56,162 nucleotides of DNA from Candidatus Nanopelagicales bacterium (GTDB taxonomy: Bacteria > Actinomycetota > Actinomycetes > S36-B12 > GCA-2699445), in NCBI GenBank assembly GCA_030700225.1, contig JAUYJT010000012.1:1-56162 (forward strand), read 5' to 3'. The notes under the pieces were generated by a model. That model did no database searches. It worked only from the letters and a program-made list of their open reading frames with translations, and was not told where the DNA came from. Of the stretch, positions 20,711 to 39,609 are shown one piece after another (positions within the stretch are counted from its first letter, which is position 1; each line of letters starts with the position of its first letter). A program made the translations under genes and the position numbers.

Positions 20711-23167
20711 TCGTGGGGAGTCCAGAACTCCTGACATAGCGACTGGATGTTGAGCCAGATTCCCTTGTAGGAGAGCACTCTTGGGCGTGTTTGGCCGGTG
20801 TTTGGGCGCCAATGTGTGAGATCATTCACTTATGGATTCAGGGCAGGACAGAGTAGGTCGGGTGAGCCAGCCCGTGTTGTCGCTGTTGCCGCCGCAGGCT
20901 CGGGCGGTCGGCCCGTCCGCTGGTCTACTGGAAGGCCCGCACGGCGGTGTGGTTTTCGTGTTCGGGCTGGCTACGTTCAGCTACGCGGCCACCGATGAGA
21001 TCGGCCGTCGGCTTGCGGCAGTGCAACTGGTGACATCCAGGATCGCGACATCGGTGGAGGTGGCCTCGGCGTTCGCGGTCTCCACGGTGACGCTGTGGCG
21101 CTGGGGAGCCGACTTCGCCTCCGGCGGGGTGGCCGGGCTCCAGCGCGCGCGCACTGGGCCGAAGGGGCCGATCAAGCTCACCCCGGCGCTAAGCGCCCAG
21201 ATCGGCGAGCTCGACGCCTCTGGTCTGTCGTTGCGCCGGATCGCAACCCGGGTGGGGGTGTCGACCGCGACGGTGCGGGTCGCGCTCGGGCGCGTTGCCC
21301 CACCGATCCAGGCGGCACCCGAGGCGGCGAACACCGATGATGCTGTCGTCGACACGGCCGCGAGGCAAGACGACGTTCACGACCACGACGTTGACGCTGC
21401 TGGCGTCGGAGATCTTGTCATCCTGGCGGCACCGGAGCCGCGCACCGCCGAACGCGCCGCGGCGCGTTTCGGGTATCTGGCCGAGGCCCCGGTGGTGATC
21501 ACCGAGGGTGCCCAGCTGCCCCTGGCCGGTCTGCTGCTGGCCTTGCCAGCGTTACAGGCGACCGGACTGCTCGAAGTCGCGGCCGAGGTCTATGGGCACC
21601 TGCGCAAAGGTTTCTACGGGCTGCGCGCCACCTTGCTGATGGGGGTGTTCATGGCGTTGCTGCGCGAACCGCGCGCCGAAGGCGCCACCCGGCTGCGCCC
21701 CGCCGATCTGGGCCGACTGCTGGGCTTGGACCGGGCCCCGGAAGTCAAGACGCTGCGCCGCAAGCTCACCGAGCTCGCCGGTCACGGCAGGGGAGCCGGA
21801 CTACAGGCCGGCCTGGGCGCCCATCACGTCACAACCCGCCCAGAGGCGGTCGGGTTCCTCTACCTCGACGGGCATGTCCGGGTCTACACCGGTACCCGGG
21901 AACTACCAAAGACCCACATCGCCAGGATGCGCATCGCCGGGCCTGCAACCGAGGAAACCTGGGTATGCGATAGCGAGGGTGACCCGGTGATGGTCATCAC
22001 CGCTGCCCCATCCCAGTCGCTGGCCGCCGAGCTGCGCCGGTCGCTGCCTGGACTGCGGGCACTGATCGGACCGGATCGGCGGTGCACCGTCGTGTTCGAC
22101 CGCGGCGGCTACTCCCCGACGGTCTTCACCGAAATCATCACCGCCGGCTTCGATGTCCTGACCTACTTCAAAGGCACCTGGGCCCGCTGCGATGGTGCGG
22201 CGTTCAACACCATGGGCCACACCGCCGCGGACGGCACCGTCCACAGCTATGAGCTCGCCGAACGCCCCATCGTGCTGCCCGTGCCAGGCCAGCGCGCCGC
22301 CGACGGTCGCGACCTGACACCGGCGAGCACGCTGACGTTGCGCCTGATCGTGCGCCGCGGCCCCGACGGGCACCAAACCCCGATCCTGACCAACCGCACC
22401 GATTTGAACGCCCCCGAGATCGCCTACCGGATGAGCGCCCGGTGGCGGCAGGAGAACTACTTCAAATACGCCCGCGAACACTTCGCCCTAGACGCCCTCG
22501 ACAGCTACGCCGACCAACCCGACGATCCTGAGCGACTGGTGCCGAACCCGGCGAAGGCCCGTGCCAAAGACCAGGTCGGCGCTGCCCGCAAGGCACTCAC
22601 CACAGCCCAAGCCGACCTCGCCGACACAATCGACAAAACGCTCACCCGAGCCCGCCGCCCCGCCAACAGCGGCACCATCACCCTGGACCCGACCGTCTGC
22701 GAAGCCCTAACTGCCGCGCGAGCCGATCTCGCCGCCGCCAAGCAGGCCTCGCGAGACACCGCCAGCCACCTGCCGCTGTCAGCCGTGCGGCCCGGCAGCC
22801 GACTACTGGAAACCGAACGCAAACTGCTGACCCACGCGATCAGGATGAGCGCCTACAACAGCGAAAGCGCCCTGGCCCGACTGCTGCGTCCGCACTACAG
22901 TCGCGGTCAGGACGAAACCCGTGCGCTCCTGCGCGAAGCGTTCACACTGCCCGGGGACATCCAGATCATCGGCAGCACCCTGCACGTGCGCCTCGACCCC
23001 GCCTCAGCACCCAGACGCAGCAACGCCCTCGCGGCCCTATGCACCGAACTGACCCAAACCCAAACGCGCTACCCCGACACCAACCTGACCCTGGCATACA
23101 GCGTCAAAGGCCACCCCGGCCCTACATAAACCAACTCACCCTGTCAGGAGTTCTGGAGTCCGCGATG
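20709..23167. mobile_element. 2.4-kb insertion sequence with large DDE transposase
   Basis: Terminal inverted repeats match at 19 of 20 positions: 20717-20736 (GGAGTCCAGAACTCCTGACA) and the complement of 23142-23161. A further CATCG(T/C)GG extends outward on both sides with a short indel, giving limits near 20709 and 23167. The element carries one 765-residue transposase. It lies between ahcY and the CPBP gene, at the edge of the gas-vesicle island. Confidence 0.8.
20832..23129 (+). CDS. Large DDE transposase (unclassified IS family)
   Basis: The 765-residue protein begins with a helix-turn-helix region typical of transposases (SRIATSVEVASAFAVSTVTL, then LSLRRIATRVGVSTATVRVA). The catalytic half has candidate acids in GFLYLDGHVRVYTGT, CTVVFDRGGYSP and RWRQENYFKYAREHFALDAL, consistent with an RNase-H DDE fold. 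A charged helical insert (about 570-650) and a C-terminal domain follow. Similar long proteins are annotated as transposases in actinobacteria and Chloroflexi, but I cannot name the IS family with certainty. The frame is intact and lies inside clear inverted repeats. Confidence 0.8.
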   Translation: MDSGQDRVGRVSQPVLSLLPPQARAVGPSAGLLEGPHGGVVFVFGLATFSYAATDEIGRRLAAVQLVTSRIATSVEVASAFAVSTVTLWRWGADFASGGVAGLQRARTGPKGPIKLTPALSAQIGELDASGLSLRRIATRVGVSTATVRVALGRVAPPIQAAPEAANTDDAVVDTAARQDDVHDHDVDAAGVGDLVILAAPEPRTAERAAARFGYLAEAPVVITEGAQLPLAGLLLALPALQATGLLEVAAEVYGHLRKGFYGLRATLLMGVFMALLREPRAEGATRLRPADLGRLLGLDRAPEVKTLRRKLTELAGHGRGAGLQAGLGAHHVTTRPEAVGFLYLDGHVRVYTGTRELPKTHIARMRIAGPATEETWVCDSEGDPVMVITAAPSQSLAAELRRSLPGLRALIGPDRRCTVVFDRGGYSPTVFTEIITAGFDVLTYFKGTWARCDGAAFNTMGHTAADGTVHSYELAERPIVLPVPGQRAADGRDLTPASTLTLRLIVRRGPDGHQTPILTNRTDLNAPEIAYRMSARWRQENYFKYAREHFALDALDSYADQPDDPERLVPNPAKARAKDQVGAARKALTTAQADLADTIDKTLTRARRPANSGTITLDPTVCEALTAARADLAAAKQASRDTASHLPLSAVRPGSRLLETERKLLTHAIRMSAYNSESALARLLRPHYSRGQDETRALLREAFTLPGDIQIIGSTLHVRLDPASAPRRSNALAALCTELTQTQTRYPDTNLTLAYSVKGHPGPT

Positions 23168-23883: not shown

Positions 23884-24228
23884 TCAGACGGCGGCCCCGG
23901 CCGCGAGTCCCACACCGTGGCACTTGACGCAGTACAGAAGCGGACTGGCTGGTTCGCGGCCGGTGGCCGAACAGCGATCGCACTCGATGACGGGTTCTCT
24001 GACGGTCTGAGCTCCCTTGCCACCGCAGGCTCCGCACGTCAGCCGCTTCCCGGGCTGGACCCCGGAGCCAGAACAGAACGCGCACCCGGCCCTGGGCGGG
24101 CGCACGCGGACGTTTCCGCTTCCGCCGCACACCTCGCAGACGGAGCTGGCCGACATGATATCGAACGGGTCGAGTCCCTGTCCCTTGCAGAAGGCACAGA
24201 TCAAGTAGTTGTCGGGGTTGTCCATCAT
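23884..24228 (-). CDS. Stand-alone CXXCXGXG zinc-binding protein (DnaJ zinc-domain-like)
   Basis: This 114-residue protein is almost wholly made of DnaJ-type cysteine motifs: CAFCKGQG, CEVCGGSG, CAFCSGSG, CGACGGKG, CDRCSATG and CVKCHGVG. Four perfect and two weaker copies could bind two or three zinc ions. There is no J-domain or substrate-binding barrel. The start at 24228 overlaps the stop of the 66-residue gene (ATGA). It ends the minus-strand arm of the gas-vesicle island. In DnaJ this domain helps present clients to Hsp70; here the J-domain sits on a GvpF protein and a DnaK ends the cluster, so a shared chaperone role is a reasonable inference. Confidence 0.8.
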   Translation of the reverse strand: MMDNPDNYLICAFCKGQGLDPFDIMSASSVCEVCGGSGNVRVRPPRAGCAFCSGSGVQPGKRLTCGACGGKGAQTVREPVIECDRCSATGREPASPLLYCVKCHGVGLAAGAAV

Positions 24229-24508: not shown

Positions 24509-24835
24509 TCAGCCTCTTGGCCCGAACGCGTCGCGCCACTCACGGGTTGAGTTCCGGCGCTCCTCGGCGTGTCTGGCCATTTCGTCGGCGACATTGCTGC
24601 GCAGATGCTCGACCTCTTCCCTGCGCTGCTCTGCGCGTTCGGCGCTTGCTGCTCGCCGCTCCGAGCCGAGGTCATCCAGCTTGGATCTGGTCTCGTCGCA
24701 CAAGCTCGCAGTTCCCTCGCGGAGCTCCTCGCCGCGAACTCTGCCGTCTTGCTTGCGCGCCTCCTCATCGGCGAGGCGGGCCTCCTTGTCCGAGACCAGC
24801 CGCGGGATCAGATCGGAAAGGTTTGAATCTGCCAC
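24509..24835 (-). CDS. Charged coiled-coil protein, gas-vesicle-linked
   Basis: A 108-residue, highly charged helical protein (LIPRLVSDKEARLADEEARK, ERRAASAERAEQRREEVEHL). Heptad-like spacing through most of its length suggests one long coiled coil. It resembles in composition the N-terminal half and repeats of the GvpC-like protein across the divergent promoter (27160-28119), which also has DLVDGLVGSAR followed by charged helices. GTG 24835 has GAAGG a few bases upstream. It lies between the response regulator and the small basic gene in the same direction. A vesicle-surface or scaffold role is inferred from context only. Confidence 0.6.
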   Translation of the reverse strand: MADSNLSDLIPRLVSDKEARLADEEARKQDGRVRGEELREGTASLCDETRSKLDDLGSERRAASAERAEQRREEVEHLRSNVADEMARHAEERRNSTREWRDAFGPRG

Positions 24836-24987: not shown

Positions 24988-25650
24988 CTATCCGGTGGAC
25001 GCGTTGAAGAACCCGGCGGCAGCCATCTTGGCTACGGCTTCGGTGCGGTTACTGGCGCCTGCCTTCTTGAGGATGGACTGGACGTGTTTCTTGACCGTCG
25101 ACTCGGACACGATCAGCCGGTCGGCGATGTCCTTGTTCACTTCGCCAGCGGCCAGGTGGATCAGCACTTCCCGTTCGGCCGGGGTCAGCTGAGCAACCAT
25201 GTGCCGGGAGCGAGCGTCCCCCATCTTCGTCATCTTCATTGCCTTGTCCAGAAGGTCTCTCCGGAACAGTGTCATTCCGCCGACGACCGCGTGGACCGTG
25301 TGTGTCAGCAGAGGGCCTGAACAGTCCTTCAACAGATACCCTGACGCCCCGCTCGCGATCGCCTCCACTACGAAGGCGTCCTCGTCGTAGTTCGACAGGA
25401 AGACGATGTGAACTCTGGGCAGCTTGGACCTGAGCCACTTCGCGAGGGCGAGACCGTTCTCCGGTGGCCCGAGCTCGATGTCCATCAGGACGACGTCCGG
25501 CTCCTTGGCTGCTACGAGTTCGGTGAGGGTGTCGCGGTCGTGAGCGCAGCCGATGACCTGAATGTGCTTGTCGCGATCCAGCATGGATCGGGCGCCTTCG
25601 CAGGCCAGGTCGTGATCGTCGACAATGGCCACCCTGATCGCGGTCACCAT
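24988..25650 (-). CDS. NarL/FixJ-family response regulator
   Basis: A 220-residue regulator. The receiver domain has VAIVDDHDL (acid pocket), the phospho-acceptor Asp57 in DVVLMDIEL and GYLLKDCSG with the conserved Lys. The LuxR-type helix-turn-helix (about 152-215; LTPAEREVLIHLAAGEVNKD, then VSESTVKKHVQSILKKAGAS) binds DNA. Its start overlaps the kinase gene by 7 nt, so the two form a coupled pair. It is transcribed away from gvpA across a 498-bp gap and is the natural candidate regulator of the vesicle genes. Confidence 0.92.
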   Translation of the reverse strand: MVTAIRVAIVDDHDLACEGARSMLDRDKHIQVIGCAHDRDTLTELVAAKEPDVVLMDIELGPPENGLALAKWLRSKLPRVHIVFLSNYDEDAFVVEAIASGASGYLLKDCSGPLLTHTVHAVVGGMTLFRRDLLDKAMKMTKMGDARSRHMVAQLTPAEREVLIHLAAGEVNKDIADRLIVSESTVKKHVQSILKKAGASNRTEAVAKMAAAGFFNASTG

Positions 25651-26324
25651 GAGGACTCCGCGATGGGGATCGTGACGCTGACCTTCGTGCCAAGTCCTGG
25701 GGTGCTGCTGATTTCGCAGGAACCGCCGAGCACCACGGCCCTGACTCGCATTGATGCCAGGCCCAGGTTCCCGCGTTCAGTCGGTTCGCGCTCGGCGATG
25801 AGCGCCGGATCGAAACCGACGCCGTCATCCTTGACCGAGCCTGAGATGGAGGTCTTGGTGGAGTGCAGTTCAACCCACACGGACGCTGCGTGGGAGTGCT
25901 TCGCGACGTTGTGAAGCGCCTCGGACATGATGCGGTATAGGGAAATGTCGGCCTTCTGCGGAAGGTAGTCCGCGTCGGCGTCGAAGTGGGCTTCGACGCC
26001 TGTTTCCTCAAGATCGCGGACCTGTGACATCAGCGTCTTGACCAGCCCAAGGGTTTCCAGTGACGCGGGCCGCAGGCGGTAGGCGATGATTCTCGTCTCG
26101 GAAAGAACTTGCCTGAGCAGCTTGGCGCTCCTCAGTATCCGCTTGCGCGTGTCGCCCGACGAGGCGCTTGCGAGCAGGTCCAGTTCGCGAATGGCCGAGG
26201 AGATTGGCTGTGCTAGACCGTCGTGGATCTCCAGGCCGATCAGCTCCAGTTCACGGTCCTGGGCCTCGATGGTGCGCTTCCAGTCGGCGGGTTCGCGGTC
26301 TGCGTTTCGGTTGCGTAACGTCAC
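25644..26324 (-). CDS. Soluble histidine kinase, HisKA_3 type
   Basis: The 226-residue kinase lacks a membrane segment and any clear sensor domain. A short helical N-terminus leads to the HisKA_3 box LELIGLEIHDGLAQPISSAI (phospho-His in EIHDG). The ATPase domain follows with the N box YRIMSEALHNVAKHSHA, the G1 box DDGVGFDP and the G2 box GNLGLASMRVRA. It should phosphorylate the NarL-type regulator it overlaps. With no sensor of its own, input may come from a cytoplasmic signal or a partner protein. The start is GTG 26324. It opens the minus-strand arm of the island. Confidence 0.9.
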   Translation of the reverse strand: MTLRNRNADREPADWKRTIEAQDRELELIGLEIHDGLAQPISSAIRELDLLASASSGDTRKRILRSAKLLRQVLSETRIIAYRLRPASLETLGLVKTLMSQVRDLEETGVEAHFDADADYLPQKADISLYRIMSEALHNVAKHSHAASVWVELHSTKTSISGSVKDDGVGFDPALIAEREPTERGNLGLASMRVRAVVLGGSCEISSTPGLGTKVSVTIPIAESSW

Positions 26325-26822
26325 TAGTCACCGCCGCTCATTCTGCAGGGCACTGCCTGGGACGCGTTCCCCTCACCCGTGGCTGGCCGTGCGTCTTCAC
26401 CCGTGCCTGCGCTCGCGTTACCGACGTCGCGGGGGGGCGGGGGGGGGTATCGCGGATGAACTCTTCACGCCCATCCCCCTCTCCCGCCAAAGTGACCCGT
26501 TCCCATCATGGCAGCTCATGGCTCAAGCACGCCCAAAACCAATGTAGGTGGTCTGATGGCCACGTCGCGCGTTGTCCAGTAGGTTGCTGTCGCCTGAGTG
26601 TGGACCCGTGTGGGTCGCCCCCGCGCCGACTGGTGCCGCGAGCTGACCTGACTGCCACAACTGGGCGCCCCATCAGCCCAGTTGCGCAGCGCGTGAATAT
26701 GGTCACTCAGCGCCTCAAGATGGCTAGCTGCGGGTGGCGACCTCATATGAGGGTGGCGAGGCTTGGAAGTGCAAGAGAAAGTTGATGTGGCACCGACCGG
26801 TGGCACTGAAAGGATGGATGGC
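26325..26822. promoter_or_regulatory. Divergent control region between the two-component genes and gvpA
   Basis: This 498-bp gap has no convincing coding frame. It holds a G-tract (seven G, one C, nine G; 26431-26447) and, 70 bp before gvpA, the palindrome CCTCATATGAGG (26741-26752) bracketed by two direct copies of GGGTGGCGA (26732-26740 and 26751-26759). The repeats are 19 bp apart start to start. This looks like an operator for a dimeric regulator, possibly the NarL-type protein encoded next door. Promoter hexamers could not be assigned with confidence. Confidence 0.5.
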
Positions 26823-27038
26823 ATGGCTATCGAAACTGCAAACTCGTCCTCGAGCCTGGTTGAGGTCGTAGACCGCATTCTCGACAAGGGCGTAGTGGTC
26901 GATGCTTGGATTCGCGTCTCCCTGGTGGGGATCGAGCTCCTTGCGATCGAGGCCCGCGTTGTGATCGCGTCGGTTGACACTTGGCTGAAGTACGCCGAGG
27001 CCGTTGGCCTGACGAAGGCAGAAGAGGTCGCCGCATAG
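26823..27038 (+). CDS. gvpA: Gas vesicle structural protein GvpA
   Basis: GvpA is the small amphipathic protein that builds the ribbed gas-vesicle wall. The 71-residue product has the full core: [55 protein letters not shown]. The alpha-beta-beta-alpha pattern with the DKG turn is diagnostic. ATG 26823 fits the usual MA(I/V)E start and has AAAGGA 9 nt upstream; an in-frame ATG 9 bases earlier is less likely. It is the first gene of the plus-strand arm and is followed by a long hairpin. Confidence 0.95.
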
Positions 27039-27055
27039 GCACTCGCTTCATCAAC

Positions 27056-27118
27056 GGCACACGGGATCGGGTGCGCCCTCCCGTGAATGAATCGGGTGGG
27101 CCCCCGATCCCGCGTGCC
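27056..27118 (+). terminator. Long hairpin after gvpA (partial terminator or mRNA stabiliser)
   Basis: Outer arms 27056-27071 and 27103-27118 pair at 15 of 16 positions (GGCACACGGGATCGGG with CCCGATCCCGCGTGCC). Inside, GCCCTCCCG and CGGGTGGGC pair at 8 of 9 around the 9-nt loop TGAATGAAT. The total stem is about 25 bp. No T-run follows. It lies between gvpA and the next gene of the same strand, where it could cut down read-through or protect a short, abundant gvpA message. Confidence 0.7.
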
Positions 27119-27159
27119 GCGCATTGACGGTCAGTCACTACGCAGGAGAAACGATTTGT

Positions 27160-28119
27160 ATGGCATCACGAACAGATGAGATGCGTGACCTCGTGGATGG
27201 TCTCGTTGGAAGTGCCAGGACACGAGTGGAGGGGGAAGCCGCCCGCTTGATGGAAGCCGGGGAGGACGCGCGGGAACGTGCTGTTCAGTTCACGGCGAAC
27301 AGGGCGAGTGTCGATGACTTCATTGAAGACCTGAAGGAGCGTCGCTTAACCAACACGGCCGAGGACGACAGTGCCCGCCGCAGCGCCGACGACGATCGCA
27401 AAGCGAGCGCCGCGGACTTCATGAGCAACGTACAAGTTAGCGTCGCGGGCATCCGAGCGGACGTTTCCAACATGCTGGGTTCGCTGCTTGGCGAGCGCAA
27501 GGCAACATCTGACGCCGACCATCAGGCACGCGACGAGGCGGAGAAGGCGCGTCTGGATGACGCTGCCAACGCGGCTCGGGAGCGGGTGGAGGAAGTGGCC
27601 CAGCGGGTCGCTGACGTTGCCGCCGACCTGACGGACAAGGCTACGACGCGCAAGGCTGAGGCTGAGGCCGACCATCAGGCACGCGACGAGGCGGAGAAGG
27701 CGCGTCTGGATGACGCTGCCAACGCGGCTCGGGCGCGGGTGGAGGAAGTGGCCCAACGGGTCGCTGACGTTGCCGCCGACCTGACGGAACTGGCCGACGA
27801 TCGCGCTGGCGCTGCCGACCTGTGGCGCGAGGGCGTCAAGGCGAGGAGCGACATCCGGTCCGGTGGGGCTCCGGCCGCGAAGCCCAAGGCCGCGAAGCCC
27901 AAGGCTGCGAAGCCCAAGGCTGCGCCAGCAACCAAACGTCGGCCAACGTCAGGTGAGATCTTCTCGTACCTGGCGGACAGCCCCGATGGCAAGACTCTGG
28001 TTGAGCTCGGGGAGCATTTCGATGTTGCCAGGATTGTTCTGACACGCTCTCTGAAGGAGCTGCGTGATCAGAACCTGGTCAGCCAGGACGAAGCGACAAA
28101 GACATACCTCGCGATCTGA
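27160..28119 (+). CDS. GvpC-like repeat protein with C-terminal winged-helix domain
   Basis: A 319-residue charged helical protein. After an N-terminal part (LVDGLVGSARTRVEGEAARL) come two nearly identical helical repeats of about 40 residues starting at ADHQARDEAEKARLDDAANA (DNA repeats 27514-27635 and 27667-27788). A Lys/Pro/Ala linker with three AAKPK units follows, then a compact domain (about 250-319; TSGEIFSYLADSPDGKTLVE, VLTRSLKELRDQNLV) that looks like a winged helix. Tandem charged repeats on the second gene after gvpA recall GvpC, which clamps and stiffens the vesicle wall. The winged helix is not a standard GvpC part. ATG 27160 has AGGAG 11 nt upstream. Confidence 0.7.
   Translation: MASRTDEMRDLVDGLVGSARTRVEGEAARLMEAGEDARERAVQFTANRASVDDFIEDLKERRLTNTAEDDSARRSADDDRKASAADFMSNVQVSVAGIRADVSNMLGSLLGERKATSDADHQARDEAEKARLDDAANAARERVEEVAQRVADVAADLTDKATTRKAEAEADHQARDEAEKARLDDAANAARARVEEVAQRVADVAADLTELADDRAGAADLWREGVKARSDIRSGGAPAAKPKAAKPKAAKPKAAPATKRRPTSGEIFSYLADSPDGKTLVELGEHFDVARIVLTRSLKELRDQNLVSQDEATKTYLAI
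27514..27788 (+). repeat. 122-bp near-identical direct repeat inside the GvpC-like gene
   Basis: Copies at 27514-27635 and 27667-27788 (period 153 bp) differ at only about two positions in 122 bp. The match at the DNA level, including third codon positions, shows a recent duplication or ongoing gene conversion. Confidence 0.85.
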
Positions 28120-28216: not shown

Positions 28217-28236
28217 GGAACGAGAGGACAAGGTTG

Positions 28237-29214
28237 ATGACGTCAGTTGTTAGAGCCGTGCCGCGCAAGAACTTCGTGGCTACTCCATACATCGAGCAGT
28301 TGACCGCGCGGGGACTTGACTACTTGGCTGCCGATTTCCCGCTTCACCTATGTGGACCGTCAGGTGTGGGCAAGACGACCCTCGCGATGCACATAGCCCA
28401 CAAGCTGGGCCGACCGGTAATGCTAATGAGCGGTGACGACGAGTTTGGCAGCTCCGACCTAGTCGGCGGCGCCACCGGCTACAACCGGCGCCGGACAGTC
28501 GACCGCTTCATTCGGTCTGTGACCAAAGTCGAGGAGTCGATGCGCGAGCAATGGGTCGACAACCGCTTGACGGTGGCCTGCCGTGAGGGACTGACCCTAG
28601 TATACGACGAGTTCACTCGGTCGCGGCCGGAAGCGAACAACGCGCTGCTGTCGGTTCTGGAGGAAGGGATACTGATCCTTCCGACGCGGAACAGGGGTTC
28701 GAGCTACCTGAAGGTGCATCCGGAATTCAAGACGATCTTCACGAGCAATCCGGATGAATACGCGGGCGTGCACAAGGCTCAGGACGCTCTCCTCGAACGC
28801 ATGGTGACCATCGACTTGGCATGCTTCGACCACGAGACGGAGACGGCGATCACGCAGGCTCGCTCTGGTGTCGATCAGGCGGATGCGCTCGTCGTCGTGT
28901 CGGTTGTCCGGAAGGTCCGCGAGCTGATCGGCGGCGACCACAGTCCGTCGCTGCGCAGCGCGGTAGTGATCGCGAGGGTGCTTTTCCAGAAGGGCAAGAC
29001 CACCGCTGACGTTGAGATATTCGAGCAGGCCTGTTTGGACGTACTGCTCAGCGCACTCGTGCGGGGCGGATACACGCGTGAGCGGGGAGTGGATGCGGTC
29101 TCCGTCGAGCTTCTCGGTATCGTTCGTGGGTTCGCCGCGCAGCGTCCGAGCCTGCGAGCAAGCGGCGAGGACATCGAGAAGGAGTTCGACGAGCAGCGGG
29201 TACCTATTGCCTAG
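28237..29214 (+). CDS. gvpN: Gas vesicle AAA+ ATPase GvpN
   Basis: GvpN is a MoxR-like ATPase needed for full vesicle growth. The 325-residue protein has Walker A GPSGVGKTT (40-48), the GDDEFGSSDLVGGATGY insert, Walker B LTLVYDEFTRSRPEANN and sensor-1 FKTIFTSNPDEYAGVHKAQDAL. These fit GvpN rather than MoxR. I use ATG 28237 with GAGAGG 9 nt upstream; TTG 28234 is in frame just before it. A strong hairpin precedes the gene. Confidence 0.95.
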   Translation: MTSVVRAVPRKNFVATPYIEQLTARGLDYLAADFPLHLCGPSGVGKTTLAMHIAHKLGRPVMLMSGDDEFGSSDLVGGATGYNRRRTVDRFIRSVTKVEESMREQWVDNRLTVACREGLTLVYDEFTRSRPEANNALLSVLEEGILILPTRNRGSSYLKVHPEFKTIFTSNPDEYAGVHKAQDALLERMVTIDLACFDHETETAITQARSGVDQADALVVVSVVRKVRELIGGDHSPSLRSAVVIARVLFQKGKTTADVEIFEQACLDVLLSALVRGGYTRERGVDAVSVELLGIVRGFAAQRPSLRASGEDIEKEFDEQRVPIA

Positions 29215-29253: not shown

Positions 29254-29577
29254 ATGAGCGGCAAACGTAGGGCGCTGCCGGATCTGCCAACGATGCAGGA
29301 CTCCCTCCTGAAGAGGGCGGTTCCTGCCGCGAAGACAGCGGAAGACAATCGGACGGTCTACTTCCAGTTGAGTCTGTTCAGCGCCGAGAAGGACCGACTG
29401 GAGCAACGGCTCCGTGATCTTCGCTCGAAGCAGGAGAACATTCTCGGCCGCCTGAAGACGGTCGACGGCCAGATCAAGAAGCTGCAGGCTAGCCTGTCGA
29501 GCGCCCCGGGAAGCGCCGGGCGCGAGGGCCTGGCGGGCACGTGGCGCGCGTGGAACGAAGTGGACATCGAGTACTGA
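29254..29577 (+). CDS. Coiled-coil gas-vesicle-cluster protein, unassigned
   Basis: A 107-residue protein with a polar N-terminus (MSGKRRALPDLPTMQDSLLK) and a central coiled coil (SAEKDRLEQRLRDLRSKQEN, LKTVDGQIKKLQASLSS). The end is WRAWNEVDIEY. No membrane segment and no Cys. Its size and place after gvpN recall small accessory proteins found in other gvp clusters, but I cannot match it to a named Gvp with confidence. It may help GvpN or bind the vesicle surface. Confidence 0.65.
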   Translation: MSGKRRALPDLPTMQDSLLKRAVPAAKTAEDNRTVYFQLSLFSAEKDRLEQRLRDLRSKQENILGRLKTVDGQIKKLQASLSSAPGSAGREGLAGTWRAWNEVDIEY

Positions 29578-30131: not shown

Positions 30132-32297
30132 GTGAGTGGAGCACTACCCGAATCGAGCGGGCCGCCGTCGCTGAGCCTGCGCGTTGGTGAAGCGCGGCCG
30201 AAGGATTCCGGCCGCGGCATCGCCCGCCTTGATCCCCAAGACATGAAGCGGCTGGGGGTCAAGATCGGTGACGTCGTCGCTGTCACGGGGAAACGAACCG
30301 TCCCTTTGAAGGTCGTGCCCGTCTACCCGGAAGACCGCGGCAATGAGCTGATGCAGATCGACGGCATCGCCCGTGAGAACGCCGGTGTGGGTATCGACGA
30401 ACGGGTGACGGTCAAGTCGGCCAGTGTCGAGAGCGCCCGGGTCGTCGCGCTGGAACCTCTGGGACCGTCGCGGCTGAGCAAGCAGGCCCGTGACGCGTCC
30501 TACATCGGGCGTCTTGTCGACGGTCTGGTGGTTCAAGCTGGTGACCGCGTCCGCGTCAACCTGTTCGGTTCGCGTCCGCAGGACTTCAAAGTCACCAACA
30601 CATCACCTGGCGGTTTCGTGCTCGTCCAGGAAGGCACCCGGGTCAAGGTGGACACGGGGGCTGACGGGGCGGCGGCTGCCCGCAACGGCGTCTCGGTGTC
30701 CTACGAGGACGTGGGCGGACTTGGTAGGACCCTTGCCCGGCTCAGGGAGATGATCGAGCTCCCGTTGCGCTTCCCCGAGGTCTTCGATCGCCTAGGCATC
30801 GATCCGCCCAAAGGTGTCCTGTTGTACGGACCGCCAGGCTGCGGCAAGACGCTGATCGCCCGCGCTGTCGCGCATGAAACCTCGGCACACTTCATCCACG
30901 TGAACGGGCCGGAGATCATGGCCAAGTTCTACGGGGAGAGCGAGGCGAACCTGCGCAAGATATTCCAGGAGGCGGAGAAGAACGCCCCGAGCATCGTGTT
31001 CCTGGACGAGCTGGACGCCATCGCGCCGAAGCGCTCAGAAGTGCAAGGCGAGGTCGAGAAGCGTGTCGTCGCGCAGATGCTCTCGCTGCTGGATGGTGTG
31101 ACGTCACGCGGCCAGGTCATCGTCATGGGCGCGACCAACATCCCGGACAACATCGATCCAGCACTGCGTCGTCCCGGCAGGCTTGACCGCGAAATCGAGA
31201 TCCCGATCCCGGACCGCCACGGACGCCGTCAGATCCTCGAGATTCACACGCGCGGGATGCCCCTGGACAACAGCGTAGACATCGAGTACCTGGCCTCGGT
31301 AACTCATGGGTACGTCGGGGCGGACCTCGCGGCTCTCGGACGGGAGGCCGCGATGATCGCCCTGCGCCGGATCATCCCCAGCATCGACCTGGCAGCGGCC
31401 GAGATTCCATACGAGGAACTCCTCGCGCTCACGGTCGGCGCTCCGGACTTCGAGACGGCGCTGCGCGAAGTGGAGCCGTCGATGATCAGGGAGTTCTTCA
31501 TCGAGGTTCCGGACACTCGCTGGAGTGACATCGGGGGGCTCGAAAGCGTCAAGCAGCACTTGCGGGAAACGATCGAGTGGCCGCAGATCCATGAGGGCTT
31601 GTTCGCCCACGCCGGCGCGGCGCCGCCGAAGGGGATACTGCTGATCGGACCCCCTGGCTGTGGCAAGACGCTGATGGCGAAAGCCGTAGCTCACGAGTCA
31701 AACGCGAACTTCATTTCCGTGAAGGGTCCCGAGCTAGTCTCCAAGTGGGTGGGGGAATCCGAGAAGGGCGTGCGCGAGGTCTTCAAGAAGGCACGTCAGG
31801 CCGCGCCTTGCATCGTCTTCCTGGACGAGATAGACGTCATGGCCGCGCGCCGCGGCTCCAGCAGCGGTGAGCGCGTGACCGAGCGCATGCTCGGGCAGAT
31901 CCTTACCGAACTGGACGGTATCGAGGAGTTGCGTGGCGTGACTGTGCTCGGCGCCACCAACCGCCTCGACGTCGTAGACCCCGCCCTGACGCGCCCTGGA
32001 CGCTTCGATCTGATCGTCGAGATAGCGCCACCGGACACCGCCGACAGGAGGGCCATCCTCGATGTGCACACGCGCAAGGGCGTGCTCGACCGCAAGATCA
32101 ACCTGGACTCGCTGGCGGAGCGGACCGAGGGCTTCGTGGGCGCTGATCTGGCCGAGCTGTGCCGCGAGGCAACCATGGGCGCGATCCGCGAGTTCGTGGC
32201 TGCGGACACAAAGCCGGCTTTGTCGGCTTTCAAGGTGACCCCGGCGCACTTCGAGAAGGCTCTGACCTCTTTGAACCAGAAGCCTCAAAATGCCTGA
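30132..32297 (+). CDS. CDC48/VAT-type double AAA+ ATPase
   Basis: About 721 residues with the full CDC48 plan: N-terminal double-psi barrel ([20 protein letters not shown] to about 190), then D1 with Walker A GPPGCGKT (233-240) and [14 protein letters not shown], then D2 with GPPGCGKT (506-513), [15 protein letters not shown] and GRFD arginine-finger region. Such unfoldases pull proteins out of complexes and are typical of archaea and eukaryotes; bacterial copies are scattered and several lie in gas-vesicle clusters. GTG 30132 directly follows the GvpH stop; GTG 30108 in frame is an alternative. The next gene overlaps its end by 8 nt. Confidence 0.92.
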
Positions 32298-33315
32298 GCA
32301 GGGCATCTACCTGTTCGCGGTCGCCGCGTCGGATCGTTTCGCGCGGCGGCTGCCGATCCCGGCGCTGCCCGACCAGTTCGGAGATGTCGAGGCGATCACT
32401 GTTGACGGCATCGTGGCGCTCGGAAGCACTTACAGCGGTTCCGCCGCGGAAGACATCCCGCAGTCGGAAGTCGTCAGGAACCTGGTTCTGCACCAGAAGG
32501 TCATCGAGCTCGCGAGGGAGCGCGACAGTGTGCTGCCGGTGCGCCTCGGGACGATCGTTCCCGACGAAGAGGCGGTGTGTCGGCTCCTGCGCGCCAGCGC
32601 GGATCTGATCCGCGACGTGTGGCAGCGGTTCCGGGATGTCGCCGAGATCGATGTCGCGGTCACCTGGGACCTTGACGAGGTCCTGAAGGAAGTTGCCGCC
32701 GATCCTGAGGTGCGCGCGGCAAGAGACGCAGCGCAGAACGCACCCGCGGAATTGCGGTCGTCGCTCGCGATCGATGTGGGCAAGCTCGTCAGCGCCAAGC
32801 TGGACGAACGCCGCGGTGACGTCCAGGGCCTGATGACCCAGACCCTGCTTCCCCATGTCCGGGATACGCAGCACAATGCGCTGGCCTCCGATGTCCTGGT
32901 TTGCAACTCGGCGTTCCTGGTGTCGGCTGGCGAGATGGCGGCGTTCGACGACGCGCTGCGCGTGGTCGACACGAAGCTGGAGGGGCGGTACAACTTCCGC
33001 CGTGTTGGGCCGCTGCCTGCATTCAGCTTCGCGACCATGCATCTGCGGGAGATAGGGGTCGACCAGCTGGAAGCTGCCCGCAAGCTGCTCGACCTGCCGG
33101 ACGACTACGACGAGGAGACGGTCGAGGCGAAGTACCGTGCGCTGGCCGTGCGTCTGCATCCAGACACGAACCCCGGTGACGAGACCGCGCCCGATCGTTT
33201 CGAGGATCTTTCAAGGGCGCGCGCTGACCTGATCACGGCGTGCGGGAACGGTGGCGCGGGGACCGGAGCCCCGGTGTTGTACTTCTCCGTCGAGCGCAGT
33301 CTCGGGAGGGGCTGA
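32290..33315 (+). CDS. GvpF/GvpL protein fused to a C-terminal J-domain
   Basis: Residues 1-250 form a GvpF/L protein: GIYLFAVAASD, VLPVRLGTIVPDEEAVC, VCNSAFLVSAGEMAAFDDAL and GRYNFRRVGPLPAFSF, the family's ferredoxin-like ending. Residues about 260-320 are a DnaJ J-domain: EAARKLLDLPDDYDEETVEA, then KYRALAVRLHPDTNPGDE with the HPD tripeptide at 290-292 that triggers Hsp70 ATPase activity, and helix IV ALSRARADL-like end. GvpF binds GvpA early in assembly, so this fusion would bring DnaK to GvpA. The cluster has its own DnaK at 37897. It overlaps the CDC48 gene by 8 nt. Confidence 0.87.
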   Translation: MPEQGIYLFAVAASDRFARRLPIPALPDQFGDVEAITVDGIVALGSTYSGSAAEDIPQSEVVRNLVLHQKVIELARERDSVLPVRLGTIVPDEEAVCRLLRASADLIRDVWQRFRDVAEIDVAVTWDLDEVLKEVAADPEVRAARDAAQNAPAELRSSLAIDVGKLVSAKLDERRGDVQGLMTQTLLPHVRDTQHNALASDVLVCNSAFLVSAGEMAAFDDALRVVDTKLEGRYNFRRVGPLPAFSFATMHLREIGVDQLEAARKLLDLPDDYDEETVEAKYRALAVRLHPDTNPGDETAPDRFEDLSRARADLITACGNGGAGTGAPVLYFSVERSLGRG

Positions 33316-35165: not shown

Positions 35166-35540
35166 ATGGCGCTCGAGCCAGTCACAGCTACCGGCGACTC
35201 GTTGGCCGACGTCATCGACGTCGTGCTCGACAAGGGTCTGGTGATCAATGCCGACATCATGGTGTCGCTGGCTGGCGTCGAGCTGCTGGGTATCAAGATC
35301 AGAGCGGCGCTCGCGTCGTTCGAGACCGCTGCTCACTATGGCCTGGAGTTCCCATCAGGAACGGACGTGACGACCAAGGCTTGGAAGGAAGCCGAGACCC
35401 GGAAGGCGGCCTGCCCGGAGTGCGGAGAACGCTTCGTTGACTCCGCGGAGTTGCTCGAAGTTGGCTGCCCGGCCTGCGGCTGGCAGAGCGCGCGCGCACG
35501 TGGCCTGATCGCGGCACCGGCGCCCCCGGTCGCAACGTGA
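35166..35540 (+). CDS. gvpJ: GvpJ-like GvpA paralog with C-terminal zinc ribbon
   Basis: Residues 1-65 are a GvpA-type domain (LADVIDVVLDKGLVINADIM, VSLAGVELLGIKIRAALASF), as in the minor wall proteins GvpJ/M/S. After a short link, residues about 80-108 hold CPECGERF and CPACGWQS, two CPxCG knuckles that look like a zinc ribbon. Minor wall proteins help start the vesicle tips; a metal-binding tail on one is not part of the standard description. AGGAGG ends 4 nt before ATG 35166. The J assignment over M or S is tentative. Confidence 0.83.
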   Translation: MALEPVTATGDSLADVIDVVLDKGLVINADIMVSLAGVELLGIKIRAALASFETAAHYGLEFPSGTDVTTKAWKEAETRKAACPECGERFVDSAELLEVGCPACGWQSARARGLIAAPAPPVAT

Positions 35541-35561: not shown

Positions 35562-36188
35562 ATGGAACCAGTCAGCAGCTACAACGCCGGCGTCACCGAC
35601 TTGTTGGAACGGATACTCCAGCGCGGTGTCATGCTCAGGCTGGACGTGATCATCAGCGTCGCGGACATACCGCTCATCGGGTTGAGTGCGCAGCTCGCGG
35701 TCGCTTCGATCGAGACAATGAACGCCTACGGGATGTTGGGTACATGGGATGCCGACTCCCGGAAGGAAGCCTTGCGCGGAGGGGCTGACGCCCGGCCCGG
35801 CAGCGGAAGAATCGTGTTCCAGCCCGGCGAGCACGTTGTCCTTGACGAGTTCGCGTCGTGCCGCGTGGAACTTGGCTGGACCAGGTGGCGGCCCGGGCGA
35901 CTTCACGTTACGAATCGTCGCGTTGTGCTAACTCGGGTGGCTCCCGACGAGATCCTGTTCGAGACGGATCTGGCGGACATCACCGGGATCGGAACCGCGA
36001 CATACTCCGCGGGCAGCGTGGTTGCCGATATCGTTTGCCTGGGTCTTGCGGACGGTCGGAGTGTCGTCTTGCGGTCGTCGCGCTCCGGGCTCGTTGAGGC
36101 GGGACTGCGTGACGTGCTCCGCAGGTCGGGTCGTCAGGTCGATGAACTGGTCGTCGACGATGTCTTCGACGATGCGGGCGACCGCTAG
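35562..36188 (+). CDS. GvpA-like minor wall protein fused to a PH/GRAM-like domain
   Basis: The N-terminus is a GvpA-type domain (VTDLLERILQRGVMLRLDVI, ISVADIPLIGLSAQLAVASI), closest in style to GvpM/GvpS. From about residue 85 comes a beta-rich domain: IVFQPGEHVVLDEFASCRVE, GRLHVTNRRVVLTRVAPDEI, FETDLADITGIGTATYSAGS and a final helix LVEAGLRDVLRRSG. The G-LHVTNRRVVL strand and following pattern fit PH/GRAM-type domains, which bind lipids or proteins. Fusion of these two is unusual and could anchor vesicle tips to a membrane or partner. The total is 208 residues. The second domain is recognised by pattern only. Confidence 0.75.
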   Translation: MEPVSSYNAGVTDLLERILQRGVMLRLDVIISVADIPLIGLSAQLAVASIETMNAYGMLGTWDADSRKEALRGGADARPGSGRIVFQPGEHVVLDEFASCRVELGWTRWRPGRLHVTNRRVVLTRVAPDEILFETDLADITGIGTATYSAGSVVADIVCLGLADGRSVVLRSSRSGLVEAGLRDVLRRSGRQVDELVVDDVFDDAGDR

Positions 36189-37119: not shown

Positions 37120-37900
37120 GTCAGCCGCAATGGGCCTGTACCTGTACTGCATTTCAGTCCAGGACCCCAAGGCCGGTCCGCTGATCGTTGCGGCTCCAGC
37201 TCTGGACGGTGGTGCTGTTCGCGTGATCACGTGCGACGGCCTGGCAGTGGCCGTTCACGCATGCCCGGTTGAGCCATACCACGGATCAGAGGACCAGGTG
37301 CGGTCGTGGATTCAGGCGCACAACGATGTCGTCACTGAGGTCTGGAAAGCCGTCGGCACGGTGCTGCCGATGAGTTTCGATTCCATCATCGCCGGGGACT
37401 CCGGCCGCGACGCCGAAACCGTTCTGGCCGATTGGATAGACCACAACCGCGAGGCGTTGGCAGAACAGCTCAAGGAGCTGAGCGGCAAGGTGGAGCTGGG
37501 GGTCAGGGTCTACAGCGAGGTTGCCGCCGAACGTGGCGGGACGGAGGAGAGTGCCCGCGGGCGAGAGTACTTCCGCAAGCAAGTCCAGAAGCGGCAAGAG
37601 ACACAGGACCGTCAGGCGCGGCGCAACGCTGAGGCCAACCGGATATTTGACGCCTTGTCAGCCCAGGCGTGTGCCGTGAGGGTGAACCCGCCAAACCCGA
37701 TAACCCCTCCGGCGATCGGCGAGGGGCGTCAGGAGATGCTCAACGTTTCGGTACTGGTCGACGGGGAGGATGTGAGCGAGGTGGGGGAGTCCCTGGATGA
37801 GGTGTGCGCGAAAGGGTACGCAGTGCACTTCACCGGGCCGTGGCCGCCATACAGCTTCGCCGGCACCGTACGGGTGTCCGAGGATGGTTCGCGCCAGTGA
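37112..37900 (+). CDS. gvpL: Gas vesicle protein GvpL/GvpF (third copy)
   Basis: A 262-residue GvpF/L protein: MGLYLYCISVQDPKAGP, VEPYHGSEDQVRSWIQAHND, VLPMSFDSIIAG, then a charged central helix (EYFRKQVQKRQETQDRQARR) and MLNVSVLVDGEDVSEVGESL...FTGPWPPYSFAGTV at the end. The YLYCI start and GPWPPYSF ending fit GvpL/F. The long helical middle sets it apart from the two earlier copies. It overlaps the previous gene by 8 nt and the dnaK gene by 4 nt (GTGA). Confidence 0.9.
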   Translation: MSESAAMGLYLYCISVQDPKAGPLIVAAPALDGGAVRVITCDGLAVAVHACPVEPYHGSEDQVRSWIQAHNDVVTEVWKAVGTVLPMSFDSIIAGDSGRDAETVLADWIDHNREALAEQLKELSGKVELGVRVYSEVAAERGGTEESARGREYFRKQVQKRQETQDRQARRNAEANRIFDALSAQACAVRVNPPNPITPPAIGEGRQEMLNVSVLVDGEDVSEVGESLDEVCAKGYAVHFTGPWPPYSFAGTVRVSEDGSRQ

Positions 37901-39609
37901 GCGCCCAGAGCGGGTCGGGGCATGCGACTGCGGTTGGCATCGATCTCGGTACCACGAACTCCCTCGTCGCCGTCATACAAGACGGCAAGGCGATCGTCGT
38001 CCGCAACCGGGAGGGTTCGCTGCTCACACCGTCGGTGGTCGCGTTCCCGCCCTCGGGCGGCGTGGTCGTCGGCGAGTTGGCGCGGAAGATGGCGCTGACC
38101 CACCCAGAGCGGACGGTGGCTTCCGTCAAGAGGCACATGGGCACTGAGTGGGAATTCCGGCTGGGGGAGCGCAGCTACAGCCCGCAGGAGATCTCGGCGC
38201 GGATCCTGCAGAAGCTCAAACGCGACGTCGAGTCGTTCCTCGGCACCGGTATCTGCGGCGCCGTGATCACCGTTCCGGCGTACTTCGACGACAAGCGGCG
38301 GCAAGCCACGTATGAGGCGGGGCGGATCGCTGGTCTTGAAGTGCTGCGAATAGTCAACGAACCGACTGCGGCTGCCCTCGCCTATGCCCTCGACACCCTC
38401 GGGCACCTGACAGTCCTGGTCTTCGACCTGGGGGGCGGCACCCTCGACGTATCCATCCTGGACATCGCCGACGGCGTCTTCGAAGTTCGCGCCACGTGTG
38501 GAGACGTCGCGTTAGGCGGCGACGACTGGGATGCTCGCATCGTCGAATGGCTCCTCGAAGAGACCCAAGATGCTGGCGCAGTCGGTCAGCCCGAGCCAGT
38601 GCGCCTTCTTGAAGCGGCTAGGCGCGCGAAGCTGGAGCTCTCCACCAGGGATGCCGCACATGTAACGGTTCCCGGAACAGACCGGGAAGTTGTCCTGACT
38701 CGGGAGGAGTTCGAGGAGCGCACGGCCGATCTCCTCGAATCGTGCCGGGGGCCGTTCGAGCGCGCGGTAGCCGACGCTGGTCTGACTGTCGCCGAGATTG
38801 ACAGGGTCGTGCTCGTTGGAGGCGCGACACGCATGCCGGCTGTGCGGCGCTTGGTCGCGTCGCTCGCTGGGCGTGAGCCCGACACCGGAATCGACCCCGA
38901 GCGTGTCGTCGCTGTGGGCGCGGCGAACCAGGCGGGAGTGCTGCTGGGACAGCGCAGCGGGGTTCTCCTGGTTGACGTCACGCCTCTCAGCCTCGGGATC
39001 CAGACCCAAGGCGGCCTGATGACCCGCCTGATAGAGCGGAACACGACGGTCCCGATCAAGGCCACTCAGATCTTCACGACGGCGGCGGACGACCAGACAT
39101 CAGTTGAGATCAAGGTCCTTCAGGGCGAGCGCGAGATGGCGGCGGACAACATGCTGCTGGGCACGTTCGAACTTGAGGGCATCCCGGCACGGCCACGTGG
39201 CCGCGCGGAGGTCGCTGTCACGTTCGCGCTAGACGCAAACGGAATCGTCTCGGTGAGTGCTCGGGATGAGTTCACCGGCGCCGCGCGCGACATCACGGTT
39301 TCCGGCCCGACAACCGTGAGCGCCGAGGAGATCGAGTGGATGGTGCGCGACGCTCAGGACCATGCGGAGGAGGACCGTCGGCTGAAGAAGGAGACCGGTG
39401 CCCGCAATGAGGCCGAGCTCGCCCTGTACCACGCAGAGCAGCTACTGCTCGACCATGCGGGGGAACTGGGCGAGCTGGCACAGGAGCTGACTGACGCCAT
39501 AGTTGAGCTGGACGTCGCTCTAGAGTCGGACACGCCGGACGCCATACGATCCGCCCACAATGCCCTACTAGACGTTCTTCAGCGCGGCGCGGAGAGCAGT
39601 GCCACGTAG
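37897..39609 (+). CDS. dnaK: DnaK-type Hsp70 chaperone dedicated to the gas-vesicle cluster
   Basis: A 570-residue Hsp70. ATPase domain: AVGIDLGTTNSLVAVIQDGK, TVPAYFDDKRRQATYEAGRI, IVNEPTAAALAYALD, VFDLGGGTLDVSILDIADG and VVLVGGATRMPAVRRLV. The linker VLLVDVTPLSLGIQT leads to the substrate-binding domain (RNTTVPIKATQIFTTAADDQ) and a short lid. It is somewhat shorter than the housekeeping DnaK (600-640 residues) and lacks the acidic tail. It is translationally coupled to gvpL, so it belongs to the vesicle operon. The likely J-partner is the GvpF-J fusion; no grpE is present here. Confidence 0.93.
   Translation: MSAQSGSGHATAVGIDLGTTNSLVAVIQDGKAIVVRNREGSLLTPSVVAFPPSGGVVVGELARKMALTHPERTVASVKRHMGTEWEFRLGERSYSPQEISARILQKLKRDVESFLGTGICGAVITVPAYFDDKRRQATYEAGRIAGLEVLRIVNEPTAAALAYALDTLGHLTVLVFDLGGGTLDVSILDIADGVFEVRATCGDVALGGDDWDARIVEWLLEETQDAGAVGQPEPVRLLEAARRAKLELSTRDAAHVTVPGTDREVVLTREEFEERTADLLESCRGPFERAVADAGLTVAEIDRVVLVGGATRMPAVRRLVASLAGREPDTGIDPERVVAVGAANQAGVLLGQRSGVLLVDVTPLSLGIQTQGGLMTRLIERNTTVPIKATQIFTTAADDQTSVEIKVLQGEREMAADNMLLGTFELEGIPARPRGRAEVAVTFALDANGIVSVSARDEFTGAARDITVSGPTTVSAEEIEWMVRDAQDHAEEDRRLKKETGARNEAELALYHAEQLLLDHAGELGELAQELTDAIVELDVALESDTPDAIRSAHNALLDVLQRGAESSAT

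Follow-up and report, generated by a model that had tools for sequence, protein, structure and literature searches.

A GvpC-like gas-vesicle protein with a recently duplicated repeat unit and a predicted C-terminal winged helix

GvpC is usually seen as a plain stiffening rod of the gas vesicle. The Anabaena protein binds GvpA and stiffens the wall (PMC9994262, PMC10185304), and mutation of the F, L, and R of its repeat abolishes stabilization (PMC9994262). Haloarchaeal GvpC is described as a series of repeats, an extended linker, and a compact C-terminal domain (PMC10903477), so a rod-linker-head layout is already known in haloarchaea. The C-terminal domain of Halobacterium GvpC binds GvpN, GvpO, GvpF, H, I, L, and itself, and the N-terminal rod fragment binds much less (PMC9372576). 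Beyond gas vesicles, deletion of eutK leaves ethanolamine microcompartments at the poles, and the authors of that study propose that the EutK tail binds nucleic acid (PMC12487888). Here, we compare a GvpC-like protein encoded in an actinomycete genome with these systems.

Genomic setting of the GvpC-like gene

The window, the whole stretch of 56,162 nucleotides that was analyzed (contig JAUYJT010000012.1 of assembly GCA_030700225.1), is from a Candidatus Nanopelagicales bacterium with a 2.6 Mb draft genome in 85 contigs. The GvpC-like ORF at 27160–28119 (forward strand) has an ATG start with AGGAG immediately upstream and encodes 319 residues, and its boundaries are as an earlier note on this DNA had drawn them. 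It sits between gvpA (26814–27038, forward; the 74-residue main vesicle wall protein; NCBIfam GvpA 126 bits over cut-off; Pfam Gas_vesicle) and gvpN (28234–29214, forward; an AAA+ ATPase; TIGR02640, 340.9 bits against a cut-off of 266.8). The gas-vesicle cluster is complete. Beyond gvpN it continues with genes for a small coil protein, an Hsp20/GvpH-like protein, and a CDC48-like AAA ATPase, followed by gvpF/L genes, gvpG, a second Hsp20-like protein, gvpO, gvpJ-like and gvpM-like genes, gvpK, another gvpF/L gene, and DnaK.

Because the same contig carries housekeeping genes (S-adenosylhomocysteine hydrolase, arginyl-tRNA synthetase, the threonine pathway, rho, and prfA), the cluster is most likely chromosomal. 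GvpN was not found in 165 other genomes of the same order or in 394 sampled genomes of the same class. No close gvp cluster outside the genome itself was present in these or in 395 genomes of the phylum, four of which have a distant GvpN, and none was found on the viral contigs searched. Whole-protein matches in order-mates (L002–L004; E 3e-5 to 4e-4) resemble unrelated coils or other winged helices. A Transposase_29-type transposase adjoins the gvp region at 20832–23129. Its proximity and the absence of gvpN in the order hint that the cluster was acquired by transfer, with the reservation that G+C is even there.

Several neighboring features are of separate interest. The gap between gvpA and the GvpC-like gene holds a strong hairpin (27055–27119, forward; inverted repeat of 20 nt, 90%; folding z −4.5), and one is also present in the related locus L006 (folding z −3.1); it is possibly an attenuator that holds gvpA transcripts above those of gvpC. 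Divergent from gvpA are a NarL-type response regulator and a histidine kinase (24988–26324, minus); a similar response regulator adjoins gvpA in L010. A 108-residue helical protein (24509–24835, minus), possibly a second small coat protein, has a homologue of 46% identity in the same divergent position in L006. The small coil protein after gvpN (29254–29577) is kept in L006 and L007 (39–48% identity), and its kinship with small pre-gvpN ORFs at other loci was unsupported.

Other observations concern chaperones and appended domains. The stretches 32290–33315 and 37804–39609 take in a GvpL/GvpF-DnaJ J-domain fusion and, in the same cluster, a DnaK; the J-domain spans residues 266–313 of the fusion (35.7 bits; cut-off 27.8). 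A DnaJ-type CXXCXGXG zinc-finger protein is encoded at 23884–24201 (minus). Together these may form an Hsp70/Hsp40 set dedicated to building vesicles. In an anammox genome, a DnaJ-type zinc-finger ORF (L025, 5413–5754; CAFCDGKGKDPFN) lies between gvpA and gvpN and, compared by eye, is like that at 23884–24201. The pair at 35166–35540 and 35562–36188 consists of a GvpJ-like protein whose C-terminal part is zinc-ribbon-like and a GvpM/J-like protein that carries an additional domain, ∼140 residues long, with no Pfam match. C-terminal additions seem common on the Gvps of this cluster.

Repeat units and spaced motif of the rod

The GvpC-like protein comprises a helical repeat rod (residues 4–233), a linker, and a winged helix. 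AlphaFold2, run with 30 homologues, predicted long helices at residues 4–114 and 120–233, disorder at 242–255, and a compact domain at 264–318. The rod is composed of four 51-residue units encoded in succession on the forward strand: old units 1 (residues 11–61; 27190–27342) and 2 (62–112; 27343–27495), and recent copies 3 (113–163; 27496–27648) and 4 (164–214; 27649–27801). Aligned pairwise, the two recent units scored a z of 13.4, and every pair with an old unit scored 2.5 to 3.5. Within the recent pair, 27509–27635 and 27662–27788 are identical, base by base, at 124 of 127 positions with a longest perfect run of 67, and Tandem Repeats Finder reported a period of 153 bp (51 residues; 97% matches, score 539). 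The near-identical 122-bp units first noticed in this gene are thus real and correspond to 27514–27635 (120 of 122 identical). One of the three base differences is nonsynonymous (E to A at residue 141/192). Given these three differences, an assembly artefact is unlikely as the source of the copies; the draft assembly may have collapsed further ones.

Across species, repeats vary in number and kind. In the nearest relatives, L006 and L007, GvpN is about 79–80% identical to that of the window; L006 is without the window duplication, and L007 has a different one of three 33-residue units. Near-identical tandem units of 99 bp are present in L007 (2.9 copies), L010, L024, and L065, units of 54 bp in L014 and L039, and one of 318 bp in L010. 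The unstable repeat number that the earlier note expected between strains is thus supported at the level of species, where both unit and count differ (L006, L007, L010, L024, and L065), and may extend to strains. The strongest self-similarity lags among 16 nonredundant winged-helix homologues and 16 with a helix-hairpin-helix (HhH) end are 33, 40, 18, 51, and 7 residues. These lags approximate whole helical turns (residues/turns of 7/2, 18/5, 33/9, 40/11, and 51/14), so addition of a unit would leave the GvpA-binding face unturned.

A motif resembling F/L-x6-R, through which cyanobacterial GvpC touches GvpA, recurs near the unit ends, at residues 54 (FIEDLKERR), 105 (MLGSLLGER), 156, and 207, with gaps of 51, 51, and 51. 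Searched as hydrophobic/T/D-L/I/M-x6-R, a four-motif chain at exact 51-residue spacing was found in 0 of 20,000 shuffles and, with one recent copy removed, the three-motif chain was equaled in 12 of 20,000; these figures are somewhat optimistic because the motif was picked after the Anabaena consensus (PMC9994262) and then loosened, by admitting T and D at the first position, on seeing this sequence. The same motif recurs in Nostoc GvpC at a spacing of 33. The full six-position Anabaena pattern occurs 0 times in the window protein and 13 times in the winged-helix group, versus 0.5 expected.

The window protein has no match to PF01304, PF05465, or TIGR02641 (for PF01304 and TIGR02641, none at E 1), and a PDB search with the full protein returned apolipoprotein only, a generic match of amphipathic helices. 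The missing profile matches and this low-complexity likeness would suit an unrelated coiled-coil regulator that lies in the gvp cluster by chance and is no vesicle coat protein. That explanation is the least probable of those weighed here, given the gene position, the spacing of the motif, homologues with repeats of 33 residues, and one of 30 aligned members (L011) that matches PF01304 weakly (E 0.003). The earlier description of the protein as GvpC-like holds for gene position, rod-linker-head layout, and spaced contact-like motif and fails for the Pfam and NCBIfam GvpC models. Because neither Pfam GvpC model matches and the unit is not of 33 residues, we retain the term GvpC-like for a protein that resembles GvpC in layout, place, and motif yet falls outside the profile families. 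Position, predicted helicity, and the regularly spaced motif suggest that the rod probably binds GvpA. Stiffening of the vesicle, or tuning of wall stiffness, may follow by analogy with Anabaena GvpC only.

Fold and spread of the C-terminal heads

Between rod and head is a basic AKPKA array with a 15-bp period (∼residues 238–255; 27873–27924, forward), and the 35 residues preceding the head have a net charge of +11. The head, residues 262–319 (27943–28116, forward), was predicted with a pLDDT of about 96–98 and in the same fold when modeled alone. Its elements (helices 264–273, 280–287, and 291–303; strands 307–310 and 315–318) follow the helix-strand-helix-helix-two-strand wing layout. VIA-align gave Z of 8 to 10 against solved winged helices of FeoC, Z-DNA-binding domain, IclR, MarR, and ArsR types. 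Foldseek alone returned no match for the head below E 0.001, as is usual for a domain of 58 residues. By sequence, the domain is under Pfam cut-offs (MarR_2, 22.5 bits against 27; E 1.3e-4 for the domain alone), and that of its homologue L018 is over those of MarR_2 (33.4 bits), HTH_20, HTH_IclR, HTH_24, and HTH_5. In the PDB, a profile of 23 heads hit Z-DNA-binding domains (4hob at E 9e-5, and 4wcg) as well as the C-terminal part of EutK (3i71 at E 9e-4), and Pfam EutK_C matched three family members. Because AlphaFold2, VIA-align, the L018 Pfam matches, and the PDB profile matches agree, the predicted winged-helix fold is well supported. The winged helix in the earlier note is borne out, with a start near residue 262 rather than 250; residues 242–255 are disordered.

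A MarR/ArsR-type fold on a vesicle protein could point to a transcription regulator that senses vesicles: free protein would bind the gvp promoter, vesicle-bound protein would not, and expression would be subject to feedback. We regard such a regulator as highly unlikely because a two-component system already lies divergent beside gvpA, near relatives with the same gene order have lost the head, and surface residues of helix 3 are highly variable among members.

A winged helix on a vesicle protein had been taken for a surprise, but it is not peculiar to this genome: genes at this place often encode one, and they do so in several phyla. Among 80 loci with the nearest GvpN sequences, a nonrandom sample in which Chlorobiaceae are over-represented, ORFs between gvpA and gvpN were classed by their C-terminal end. 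A winged-helix end was found in the window and 29 of 75 other clusters and an HhH end in 18 of 75; the remaining 28 have neither, a mixed class that takes in clusters without a GvpC-like gene at that place. Winged-helix loci are in Chlorobiota (12), Chloroflexota (11), Actinomycetota (2, with the window), and Melainabacteria (1). Other records, an identical contig under both Synergistota and Atribacterota and a Bacteroidota bin whose GvpN is identical to one of Chlorobiaceae, are probably binning matters. The gvp proteins of L077 and L078 (Atribacterota and Synergistota records) are identical, which could reflect misbinning or very recent transfer. The winged-helix profile has no match in haloarchaeal or Nostoc GvpC. 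The literature searched, which most subscription papers lie outside, yielded no description of winged-helix or HhH heads on bacterial GvpC-like proteins and no link of gas vesicles and gvpC with a winged helix, a DNA-binding domain, or the nucleoid.

On a quick GvpN tree, the three C-terminal states need at least 14 changes. The window groups, with full support, with L006 and L007, both without a winged helix, and L008, with a head, pairs with L009, which has none. These changes and the sister loci with and without heads show that heads have been swapped or lost within short evolutionary times. No decayed winged helix above noise was found downstream of the gvpC stop in L006, L007, or L009. 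Repeated presence and absence would also be expected of a near-neutral appendage, or of a mere cap that ends the rod and prevents end-to-end aggregation. Either is improbable, as the fold and a C-terminal YFxI end are kept at low identity across several phyla and nucleic-acid-type folds have been recruited repeatedly.

Candidate roles of the head and comparison with known systems

We tentatively favor, at somewhat less than even confidence, a GvpC-type coat protein with a head that serves as an exchangeable module for docking, in all likelihood to assembly factors among the Gvps and/or to other heads. With its spaced F/L-x6-Arg-like motif, the amphipathic four-unit rod would follow the GvpA ribs on the outer face of the vesicle, and slippage would copy or drop units and so change the reach of the rod. 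The flexible basic linker would keep the winged-helix head away from the vesicle surface, where it could bind GvpN, GvpO, GvpF/L, and/or other GvpC heads while the vesicle grows. The earlier note had raised both a link of vesicle state to DNA and the binding of another protein as possible roles. The docking step is modeled on, and preferred because of, the haloarchaeal GvpC head, the best experimental precedent (PMC9372576); DNA tethering has the second-best, EutK (PMC12487888). Because the haloarchaeal head is a zinc finger and not a winged helix, docking is here an argument by analogy. Points against this model are the absence of a GvpC profile match, the absence of the full six-position pattern, and a unit of 51 rather than 33 residues. 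GvpN of the L006/L007 type, ∼80% identical to that of the window, does not need a head, since the head is missing there.

Nucleoid tethering is the main rival. The head and basic linker would bind DNA with little regard to its sequence, and vesicles would thereby ride on the nucleoid, spread through the cell, and be shared at division, in the way proposed for the winged-helix tail of EutK. This is possible, at a lower probability than docking. The Z-DNA-binding and EutK matches of the head profile and the EutK_C matches in three members are consistent with tethering, and EutK, a shell protein with a winged-helix tail, sets the location of its organelle in the cell (PMC12487888). The head of Halobacterium salinarum gvpC (L094, 3970–4164), termed a zinc finger in the binding study (PMC9372576), has a weak match to the Ros/MucR DNA-binding zinc finger (E 5e-4, 20.6 bits; cut-off 25.4). 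Winged helices, HhH domains, and Ros-type zinc fingers are all chiefly nucleic-acid binders. That three unrelated folds of this kind share one C-terminal slot favors DNA and counts against docking. Six domain-free GvpC-like ORFs have strongly basic tails, and helix 3 and the wing have a net charge of +2.7 versus −2.0 for helices 1–2, the former being more positive in 15 of 18 members. The +11 linker of the window also suits tethering, but a strongly basic linker (+11) is present only in the window and L008, and most members outside Actinomycetota have acidic ones. Also against tethering, the window head itself has a net charge of −4, and heads across the family are close to neutral. The HhH type most resembles tails on ribosomal proteins L21 and S2 and on NuoE rather than DNA enzymes, and the haloarchaeal head binds proteins. 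A broader claim, that vesicles of many bacteria wear DNA-binding GvpC heads (winged helix, HhH, or zinc finger) that tie them to the nucleoid, is more doubtful still. If true, such heads would be a common, repeatedly evolved route by which protein organelles spread and are inherited.

More than half of the 75 related clusters encode, at the GvpC place, a folded head of one of two unrelated folds, and a third fold is present in haloarchaeal GvpC. GvpC may thus be recast as a coat with exchangeable, outward-facing modules. The spread of heads on such proteins in several phyla suggests that the coat of a vesicle may attach to another cell component, and whether that partner is the assembly machinery, another coat, or DNA becomes a testable question. 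Natural units of 18, 33, 40, and 51 residues and natural surface heads are also useful parts for engineered vesicles.

The closest described systems each share part of this design. Haloarchaeal GvpC (PF05465) has a repeat rod, an extended linker, and a compact C-terminal head; however, its repeats are of 32–40 residues and its head is a zinc finger, whereas the window protein has no PF05465 match and no cysteine in the head. The gvpA-gvpC-gvpN order of the window is that of Halobacterium and of Nostoc. Cyanobacterial GvpC (PF01304, TIGR02641) likewise is encoded between gvpA and gvpN and is a long amphipathic tandem-repeat helix with an F/L-x6-R-like motif at constant spacing, but its units are of 33 residues, and the window protein has 51-residue units, an extra linker and winged helix, and no profile match. 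HhH-tailed GvpC-like proteins (L014, L017, L024, L035, L047, L065, L080, and others) occupy the same place in their clusters and have a helical rod with lags of 33, 40, and 51 residues, but their tail is a helix-hairpin-helix (HHH_5/DUF4332). EutK, an ethanolamine microcompartment shell protein, likewise sits at the surface of an organelle with a protein wall and ends in a winged helix. In contrast to the window protein, EutK has a BMC shell domain, of which Pfam finds none here, and its tail carries positive charge according to PMC12487888. The parallel suggests a shared solution for positioning protein organelles.
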